In this document: piece after piece, positions 5,073 to 7,795 of the stretch
How the letters are laid out: every line of letters begins with the position of its first letter
How positions within the stretch are numbered: position 1 is the first letter of the stretch
Position numbers and translations under genes: made by a program
The notes under the pieces: generated by a model
Seen by the model: only the letters and a program-made list of their open reading frames with translations
What the model was told of the DNA's origin: nothing
The model's database searches: none
Source of the DNA: Henckelia pumila
Taxonomy: Eukaryota > Streptophyta > Magnoliopsida > Lamiales > Gesneriaceae
Length of the DNA: 64,000 bases
Assembly (NCBI RefSeq): GCF_033568475.1
Contig: NC_133120.1
Coordinates: forward strand, 92,894,151 to 92,958,150
Direction of reading: 5' to 3'

Positions 5073-7724
5073 TTAGTGAGGGGAACGACATGCTACCTCC
5101 AGGTAGTTGTACATATTTAGCTTTGCGAAGGATAGATCTTTAATGGTGGGCTTGCAGTCGTTTGTCAAGATGCCAAATCCAAGGCAACAGCCTGCTGCAT
5201 CAGTCATGATCCCAGTGCTAGTGCTTTGTGGAATGAACTCTTTTTCTGCTTTTGAAGAATTACTTGTATTGGAAACAGACGGTCTCTTTGGATTGCATGA
5301 ATCATACATCACTGTGTCTATCGAACATGTCGAGGGGCGAGTGTGATGGAACGGTGATGGACTTGGGGTTGGAACATCTGGAGATGGAGATGGCGGTTGT
5401 GTACTCGGGGTTGGAACATCTGGGGATGGTGCTGGACTCGGGGTTGGAACATCTGGGGATGGAGATGGAGATGGCGGTTGTGGTGATGGGGTTGGAACGT
5501 CTGGGGATGGAGATGGACTTGGGGTTGGAACGTCTGGAGATGGAGATGGAGATGGCGGTTGTGGACTCGGGGTTGGAACATCTGGGGATGGTGCTGGACT
5601 CGGGGTTGGAACATCTGGGGATGGAGATGGAGATGGAGATGGAGATGGCGGTTGTGGTGATGGGGTTGGAACGTCTGGGGATGGAGATGGACTTGGGGTT
5701 GGAACGTCTGGAGATGGAGATGGTGGCTGTGGTGATGGGGTTGGACTTGGGGTTGGAACAACTGGCGATGGTGATGGGGTTGGAATGTCTGGGGATGGTG
5801 ATGGAGTTGGACTTGGGGTTGGAACATCTGGAGATGGAGATGGTGGTTGTGGTGATGGGGTTGGAACGTCTGACGATGGTGCTGGGGTTGGGCTTGGGGT
5901 TGGAACGTCTGGAGGTGGAGATGGTAGCTGTGGTGATGGGGTTGGACTTGGGGTTGGAACAACTGGCGATGGTGATGGGGTTGGAATGTCTGGGGATGGT
6001 GATGGGGTTGGACTTGGGGTTGGAGATGGTGGCTGTGGTGATGGGGTTGGAACAACTGGCGATGGTGATGGGGTTGGAATGTCTGGGGATGGTGATGGAG
6101 TTGGACTTGGGGTTGGAACATCTGGAGATGGAGATGGTGGCTGTGGTGATGGGGTTGGAACGTCTGGCGATGGTGCTGGCGATGGTGCTGGGGTTGGGCT
6201 TGGGGTTGGAACGTCTGGAGGTGGAGATGGTGGCTGTGGTGATGGGGTTGGACTTGGGGTTGGAACAACTGGCAATGTTGATGGGGTTGGAATGTCTGGG
6301 GATGGTGATGGGGTTGGACTTGGGGTTGTAGATGGTGGCTGTGGTGATGGGGTTGGAACAACTGGCGATGGTGATGGGGTTGGAATGTCTGGGGATGGTG
6401 ATGGAGTTGGACTTGGGGTTGGAACATCTGGAGATGGAGATGGTGGCTGTGGTGATGGGGTTGGAACGTCTGGCAATGGTGCTGGCGATGGTGCTGGGGT
6501 TGGAACGTCTGGAGGTGGAGATGGTGGCTGTGGTGATGGGGTTGGACTTGGGGTTGGAACAACTGGCGATGGTGATGGGGTTGGAATGTCTGGGGATGGT
6601 GATGGGGTTGGAACATCTGGAGATGGAGATGGTGGCTGTGGTGATGGGGCTGGAACGTCTGGCGATGGTACTGGGGTTGGACTTGGGGTTGGAACATCTG
6701 GGGATGGAGATGGTGGCTGTGGTGATGGGGTTGGAATGTCTGGCGATGGTGCTGGGCTTGGGCTTGGGCTTGGGCTTGGGATATCTGGAGATGGAGATGG
6801 TGTCGGGGTTGGGCTTGGGGTTGGAACGTCTGGGGATGGTGATGGACTTGGGGTTGGAACATCTGGAGATGGAGATGGTGCTGGGGTTGGACTTGGGGTT
6901 GGAACATCTGGAGATGGAGATGGTGGCTGTGGTGATGGGTTTGGAACGTCTGGCGATGGTGCTGGGGTTGGGCTTGGGGTTGGAACATCTGGTGATGGTG
7001 CCGGGGTTGGAACATATGGGGATGGTGATGGAGTTGGAACGGGTGACGGGGACGGAGATGGTGTAGGAACATCAGGAGATGGTGGAAGAGAGTCTGGGGA
7101 TGGTACTGGTGTTGGAACTGGGGTAGGAGATGGCGATGGTGGTAGGACCGGAGGAGGTGGATGCGGCAAAGGCCCATGACTATTGCCACAGATATTTTTT
7201 GCGACTTGGAGCAGCCTACGTTCCATCGGATCCAAGCTTTCAATGTAACAATGTTTTGTGATCTTTCGAACTTGCAAACAACAGTAACTCCGTGCATCTT
7301 TCAGAAGAGGAAAGTCGGGCCTTCCACAAGTGTCCAGCAGTTGAGTCACCGACTGACAGATTCTATGTGGCTGGGGACGTGATCTAGACGGTGGTTGAGC
7401 CGGTGGAGACACAGGTGGTGGCAATGGAAGAGGCATCGGAGGAACATCGATCAACGGGTTATCGCAGATTTTCGTTGCACCGTTGAAGAAGTCTTGTTCC
7501 CTCTGGCTCAATTCCTGGAAACAATGGTCTCTGATATTTCGTACTTGCTGGCAACAATAGGGACGGGCTCGAACATGATCTCGAACATCACGTAAACTAC
7601 GACCGAAGCTGATGCCACAAAACTTGAAGAAATTATCCCTCGCTGCACACTGACTCGCACCTTGGCTCAACGACAGAAGAATAAACAACGACAAAAAGAA
7701 AATCATAATATTTTTTGCCGCCAT
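5073..7724 (-). CDS. Secreted protein with three prolamin-like modules and a giant Pro/Ser-rich repeat
   Basis: Single-exon ORF of 883 aa from the MAAKNIM start; an in-frame ATG seven codons upstream (7745) exists, but the paralog supports 7724. Numbering from 7745, a hydrophobic signal peptide spans about 8-29. Module 1 has Cys at 33, 43, 64, 65, 75 and 94, and module 2 at 130, 140, 155, 156, 166 and 186. About 600 residues of Pro-Ser-Pro-Asp-Val-Pro-Thr type repeats then run from about 200 to 800, and a third module ([20 protein letters not shown]) closes the protein. The spacing C-x9-C-xn-CC-x8/9-C-x18-20-C matches the six-cysteine Prolamin_like/ECA1 class, to which egg-cell EC1 peptides belong. 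The repeat should be hydroxylated and O-glycosylated like extensin or arabinogalactan proteins; that is inference. The product is probably secreted to the wall or apoplast. Its function is unknown. Confidence 0.82.
5340..7140. repeat. Coding minisatellite with higher-order structure
   Basis: About 1.8 kb of imperfect short repeats encode [14 protein letters not shown] units on the minus strand. The units form longer blocks that recur as sets: [14 protein letters not shown], then [14 protein letters not shown], then [18 protein letters not shown]. This points to block duplication on top of simple-unit slippage. The repeat is stop-free in several frames on both strands, so it produces large false open frames. 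Confidence 0.93.
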
Positions 7725-7795
7725 TGTAAAGCTTCTGTCACTCAAAAGTGAATGAATGGGAAAGGTTTGAATGGCGTAAAAGCTTCTGTAGTTCG

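Follow-up and report, generated by a model that had tools for sequence, protein, structure and literature searches.

Tandem neighbours with and without a long linker

The window, that is, the whole stretch of DNA analysed here, comprises 64,000 nucleotides of the Henckelia pumila genome (C1:92894151-92958150 of G000; 884.66 Mb, 133 contigs) and contains two tandemly arranged genes, copy A and copy B (Table 1). Both encode a protein starting with a hydrophobic stretch (MAAK...LSQG), which is presumed to be a signal peptide, followed by three modules of six cysteines each. The gaps between successive cysteines in modules 1, 2 and 3 are 9,20,0,9,18, then 9,14,0,9,19, then 9,35,0,9,21 in copy A, and 9,13,0,9,18, then 9,14,0,9,19, then 9,36,0,9,21 in copy B. 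The first-pass annotation had described copy A as three such modules with a Pro/Ser stretch of about 600 residues between modules 2 and 3, and the adjacent paralog as having a linker of about 20 residues; both descriptions hold, with 613 aa of linker in an 883-aa frame in A and 22 aa in B. It had also placed copy A at 5073-7745, which is the correct locus with an end 21 bases past the ATG, the ORF extending to 7724. Two extra cysteines (CFNC; window 10341-10352) lie right behind module 1 of copy B and are absent in copies A and C.

Table 1 Positions of the genes, their parts and the related loci (window coordinates unless a contig is named).
Feature	Position	Strand	Remarks
Copy A	5073..7724	-	Uninterrupted single-exon ORF, 883 aa, long linker
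TATAAA, 78 bases upstream of copy A ATG	7797..7802	-	Motif match only
Copy A, presumed signal peptide, aa 1-22	7659..7724	-	Hydrophobic N-terminus; cut site assumed, from sequence
Copy A, module 1, aa 26-87	7464..7649	-	C-x9-C-x20-CC-x9-C-x18-C
Copy A, module 2, aa 123-179	7188..7358	-	C-x9-C-x14-CC-x9-C-x19-C
Copy A, linker, aa 180-792, 613 aa	5349..7187	-	In-frame array, 306-bp higher-order period
Copy A, module 3, aa 800-879	5088..5327	-	C-x9-C-x35-CC-x9-C-x21-C
Copy B, tandem neighbour of A	9764..10609	-	Uninterrupted single-exon ORF, 281 aa, short linker
Copy B, module 1, aa 30-84	10358..10522	-	From cysteine spacing
Copy B, module 2, aa 113-169	10103..10273	-	From cysteine spacing
Copy B, linker, aa 170-191, 22 aa	10037..10102	-	Without PDVP unit, from sequence
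Copy B, module 3, aa 199-279	9773..10015	-	From cysteine spacing
Copy C	L024, contig C129		Intact, 668 aa, modules 1-3, 403-residue linker
Copy D	L025, C1 at 87.1 Mb (5.8 Mb from window)		Without module 1; 311-residue linker and in-frame stop
Copy E	L026, C2		Broken; signal-peptide and module 2 pieces in different frames; array start
Copy F	L027, C1 at 75.1 Mb		N-terminus and module 1 only

The linker resembles an arabinogalactan-protein stalk

The linker of copy A is composed of 47% Pro, 21% Ser, 10% Thr, 7% Val and 6% Asp. Analysis of the proline context in the long linkers of copy A and its paralogs C and D revealed that most prolines are isolated (243/290 in A, 177/180 in C and 115/151 in D) and that nearly all of these are preceded by S, T, A, V or G (230/243, 162/177 and 113/115, respectively). 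According to the rules in the excerpted text of PMC5073881, isolated Pro leads to arabinogalactan and SPPP runs mark extensins, and a chimeric arabinogalactan protein (AGP) combines more than 50% PAST with another domain. The PAST fraction of the mature part, counted after an assumed cut at aa 22, was 0.657 in A, 0.605 in C and 0.653 in D, all above the 50% AGP rule, and 0.317 in B, which is below it. Copy A contains three SPPP and thereby reaches the number in the extensin rule (at least two), while C and D contain none; contiguous Pro is rare in A, only 4 of 264 Pro runs being three residues or longer. The extensin rule also asks for repeats spread through the protein. The PVKCYT fraction of A, C and D (0.55–0.56) is above the 45% value for PRPs, and both this and the SPPP number of A count against a clean AGP label. 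No hydrophobic C-terminal tail of the GPI type was found in the last 25 residues, the C-termini being CRSPH, CRSPY and CSPAY.

The AGP-like stalk suggested in the first-pass annotation is thus supported by the mostly isolated Pro after S/T/A/V and by the PAST value of A; the linker appears to fit the AGP pattern, and a secreted chimeric AGP is probably the best reading of the protein. Like the fasciclin-like (FLA), plastocyanin and xylogen-type chimeric AGPs, these proteins combine more than 50% PAST with a non-HRGP domain and carry SP/TP/AP/VP dipeptides throughout, but they lack the GPI-type hydrophobic tail, and a prolamin-like partner domain is not listed for chimeric AGPs in any of the literature excerpts. 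The excerpts of PMC5557327 and PMC3149072 contained nothing to the point; the literature covered was that of open-licence PMC papers, in which absence is a weak negative.

Cysteine modules are related to the prolamin-like family

Modules 1 and 2 are homologous (hhalign probability 97.5), whereas no similarity of module 3 to modules 1 and 2 was detectable beyond the cysteine spacing (hhalign probability 0.4 and 0.9). The description of the two copies as having the same three six-cysteine modules therefore applies to the common cysteine spacing and to the kinship of modules 1 and 2, but not to the sequence of module 3; by spacing all three modules likely belong to one family, which the sequence leaves unproven. 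The whole proteins of A and B matched PF05617 (Prolamin_like) with 24.1 and 26.9 bits, respectively, above the gathering cut-off of 22 bits, these scores being sums over two and three stretches, respectively. Every single module and N-terminal part scored below 22 bits, the highest value being 21.6 (D); copy F and module 3 of A, C and D gave no PF05617 match, and module 3 of B gave a sub-threshold match of 13.2 bits. PF14368 was absent from the Pfam matches listed, and PF00234 had an E value of 0.37 in A. Thus the ECA1/prolamin-like kinship proposed from the letters alone proved weak but real in the PF05617 check.

The spacing C-x9-C and CC-x9-C was present in all 11 modules of copies A–D, while the module of copy F has C-x10-C instead. 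Ten PF05617 loci were listed in the genome, of which eight were fetched; the same spacing occurred in 7/8 of these, L005 lying outside the search pattern. This common spacing argues for kinship of the modules with PF05617 proteins. Module 3 has a longer second loop (35–36), but its last loop (21) equals that in four of the seven pattern-fitting loci. Profile matches to EC1-like proteins of the same genome were weak, with probabilities of 21.8–27.8 for modules 1 and 2 and 10.4 for module 3. AF2 modelling of B together with two pieces of A gave a mean pLDDT of 53.7 and a pTM of 0.23, with helical modules 1 and 2 and low values in module 3; module 3 modelled alone yielded one confident model of five (73.2, b-b-b-a), the remaining four reaching 29–36. 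A Foldseek search of this module 3 model against PDB returned nothing at E ≤ 0.001 (best 0.23), a PDB sequence search with B returned nothing under E 0.27, and NCBIfam gave no match for B or for module 3 of A.

These proteins share with PF05617/ECA1 gametogenesis-related proteins, including EC1, the C-x9-C-xn-CC-x9-C-xn-C pattern, an intronless ORF and a hydrophobic N-terminus, but differ from them in having three modules, a long AGP-type linker and sub-threshold single modules. EC1 proteins carry tryptophans after cysteines 1 and 5, and those of cotton mostly have one module and in a few cases two, as given in the excerpted text of PMC8702097. No tryptophan was found at either position in any of the 11 modules of A–D, which rules out EC1 membership as far as these excerpts define it; the EC1 label given at first is not supported. 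Membership in the nsLTP or HyPRP families was likewise ruled out, since each module has six cysteines, with no eight-cysteine motif and no CXC within modules.

The cysteine modules are under constraint, the Ka/Ks ratios from simple Nei-Gojobori counts being 0.22–0.41 in six N-terminal pairs and 0.30–0.72 in six module-3 pairs. The highest of these, 0.72 for module 3 in the A–D pair, counts against the explanation favoured below.

Long arrays are shared among dispersed paralogs

A search within this one genome, with B, module 3 of A and modules 1–2 of A as queries, revealed four further loci, copies C–F (Table 1); weak matches (one at E 2.26 and four at E 2.4–7.3) are left out of this count. 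The stop in copy D is a single in-frame stop within the array, and module 3 is open behind it; no module 3 was found for copy E. Long arrays were present in three of the four loci with module 3 (A, C and D), with one unit type of 10 protein letters. The 3' end of the array is common to these three copies (22 protein letters in A and D, with a near copy in C), and its 5' start is common to A, D and E. These common ends among paralogs indicate that the array predates the parting of A, C, D and E, and, judging from the sequences, the stalk is an old feature of the gene family, not a fresh expansion.

The first-pass annotation had regarded the expansion as confined to one of two tandem copies and as recent, perhaps polymorphic, and had named the same long repeat in orthologs of related species as evidence that would speak against a recent origin. 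The confinement is true of the tandem pair and fails for the family, because C and D contain arrays and E contains an array start; a result of that kind was obtained in paralogs of the same genome. An origin by recent minisatellite expansion in A alone, although suggested by the presence of the array in only one of the tandem neighbours, is refuted by these paralogous arrays with common ends and by the large N-terminal synonymous divergence between their carriers (Ks 0.85 for A–C and 1.01 for A–D), so that we regard this reading as very improbable. The array of A nevertheless exceeds the others in length and in internal similarity (best identity within the array 0.94 on average over 45 nt), and thus its present length may well be recent. 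Three separate loci with different arrays make an assembly artefact unlikely.

Arrays are in frame and rewritten from within

Tandem Repeats Finder detected many overlapping arrays within 5379-7082 in copy A, the best having a score of 1582 and a period of 306. The higher-order periods differ among the copies (306 bp in A, 105 bp in C and 54/162 bp in D), and all are multiples of three. Self-matches within the arrays (at least 75% over 45 nt) were found exclusively in frame, numbering 15616 in A, 5842 in C and 4492 in D, with none out of frame in any of them. That all self-matches are in frame argues that the array of copy A is not due to chance. An uninterrupted frame across the array does not on its own count as evidence, as further frames are likewise open. 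For 45-nt windows taken from the arrays, the best match lay in the window's own array in 0.90 of cases in A, 0.78 in C and 0.79 in D, suggesting that each array has been rewritten from within.

Analysis of the PD[VI]P units (34 in A, 24 in C and 14 in D) showed mean diversities at codon positions 1/2/3 of 0.192/0.100/0.289 in A, 0.175/0.098/0.437 in C and 0.160/0.022/0.233 in D. This pattern, with position 2 least and position 3 most variable, is as would be expected if the peptide were kept. The all-pairs count in the array of copy D gave 4355, 1126 and 4248 for positions 1, 2 and 3, and the absence of a third-position excess there was counted against this.

The 3' half looks more alike than the 5' half among array-bearing copies

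Comparison of synonymous differences per site between the N-terminal part and module 3 revealed a marked drop in all pairs of array-bearing copies, from 0.51 to 0.23 in A–C (p 0.0004), from 0.65 to 0.18 in A–D (p 0.0002) and from 0.57 to 0.23 in C–D (p 0.0002). The same drop was smaller in the pairs with B (0.53 to 0.41, 0.53 to 0.38 and 0.50 to 0.36; p 0.089, 0.056 and 0.120). With module 2 alone as the reference, the p values were 0.0048, 0.0002 and 0.0010 in pairs without B, and 0.039 in one B pair (B–D); all these p values are per pair and uncorrected, and the pairs share sequences. Nucleotide similarity extends about 55–160 bases beyond the stop in A–C, A–D and C–D, but not in the B pairs, according to a reading of the coordinates; on the 5' side, similarity between A and C begins one base before the ATG.

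Taken at face value, these data would mean that the 3' half has been exchanged or converted among the array-bearing copies, although a module 3 that merely evolves slowly would be a simpler history. We tentatively consider, as a possibility of less than even weight, that the array acts as a recombination substrate: through it A, C and D, although spread across 5.8 Mb and two contigs, would exchange or convert their 3' half, comprising the array, module 3 and part of the 3' flank, B having dropped out of this process. If so, the array would influence which module is retained at the C-terminus in this family, in addition to any role as a stalk.

Loss of the array in copy B is weakly favoured over a later gain

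The trees did not agree on the position of B. The module-2 protein tree, in which module 1 served as the other side, has C as the first copy to branch off and places B among A, D and E (89/82); A joins B in the module-2 DNA tree (81/78), and the joined DNA of modules 2 and 3 separates AB from CD (81/84). With module 3 alone, A groups with C, and B has the longest branch (78/80). A grouping of A+C+D+E without B was not rejected by the AU test (p-AU 0.143, and 0.132 without module 1 of B).

An early split of B, followed by a single origin of the array in the lineage leading to A, C, D and E, is therefore a possible history, in keeping with the AU result (p 0.13–0.14) and with the position of B as the most distant copy in module 3 (Ks 0.50–0.59 in B pairs vs 0.20–0.27 among A, C and D). 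The closeness of the array-bearing copies in module 3 can, however, stem from exchange among them; B is not distinguished by its synonymous divergence in the N-terminal part (Ks 0.65–0.93 in B pairs vs 0.85–1.01 in pairs without B), and both the rooted module-2 tree and the concatenated quartet put B with or inside the array-bearing copies. We thus consider this gain about half as probable as the overall account given below, and weakly favour a loss of the array in copy B, the branches behind it (89/82 and 81/84) being weak.

Such a loss would have its closest precedent, in terms of dynamics, in the HyPRPs, whose ancestral long Pro-rich domains were repeatedly shortened or lost after duplication, as described in the excerpted text of PMC2216038. 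HyPRPs likewise have a secreted repetitive Pro-rich domain and a cysteine domain, but in them the Pro-rich domain is N-terminal and followed by one C-terminal eight-cysteine motif, whereas the six-cysteine modules here flank an internal array.

A proposed family of chimeric proteins with cysteine heads flanking a stalk

The best explanation, to which we assign a probability of roughly 0.6, is that these loci form a small plant gene family of secreted chimeric AGP-type proteins, in which the long stalk was ancestral to A, C, D and E and most likely lost in B. Two related prolamin-like modules on the N-terminal side and one further cysteine module at the C-terminal end would be joined by an almost strictly alternating X-Pro stalk, whose prolines are predicted to be hydroxylated and to bear arabinogalactan. 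The glycosylated stalk may then serve as a stiff, acidic spacer in the wall matrix, keeping the heads apart and limiting their diffusion, and the protein would be soluble or wall-held, as no GPI tail is visible. The stalk would date back to the common ancestor of A, C, D and E, and slippage or unequal exchange would since have remodelled each array internally, as suggested by the differing higher-order periods, while B would represent the same heads without the spacer, having most likely lost the array.

Two other functions were weighed against this explanation. A signalling peptide of the EC1 kind, acting in the egg cell or pollen and tethered to the wall, would agree with the PF05617 relation and with the C-x9-C...CC-x9-C spacing found in EC1-like proteins of the same genome, but is unlikely in view of the missing tryptophans after cysteines 1 and 5. 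Prolamin seed proteins also combine Pro-rich repeats with cysteine domains, and a storage or bulk structural protein, with the repeat as composition filler only, would account for the presence of repeat and cysteine modules together and for the fast turnover of the array; since Gln makes up just 2.6% of the A linker and the cysteine modules are constrained and sited on both sides of the array, this is less likely still.

Under the AGP-type explanation, prolamin-like six-cysteine modules would join the known partners of arabinogalactan-type stalks, the stalk here being flanked by heads at either end, and a single genome would show how paralogs have remodelled, broken and probably lost such a stalk. 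The side-by-side pair of A and B, one with a long stalk and the other with none, is a natural pair suited to testing the role of the stalk.

Other features of the window and genome

Short blocks 76–80% alike were found about 0.8–1.0 kb upstream of B (window 11400-11700), D, E and, in part, F, and could be either a common promoter part or a repeat. The gene starting near window position 255, which may encode a SYS1-type membrane protein, probably contains within an intron two direct copies of about 320 bp with 98% identity (window 2246-2890). Several further repeats are located in the window: a 3.68-kb unit arranged head to tail about 2.6 times with 97–98% identity (30274-39699), a minisatellite with a 62-bp unit in about 15 copies (43529-44458), and a 670 bp repeat with 97.6% identity at two sites 28.5 kb apart (28772-29441 and 57312-57981). 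Two direct 1866-bp copies, 99.7% identical and about 7.7 kb apart from start to start (47175-49040 and 54911-56776), resemble the termini of a young LTR element. At the level of the whole genome, four contigs of 183, 201, 204 and 234 Mb hold 822 of the 884.7 Mb, suggesting that the plant may have few, large chromosomes.
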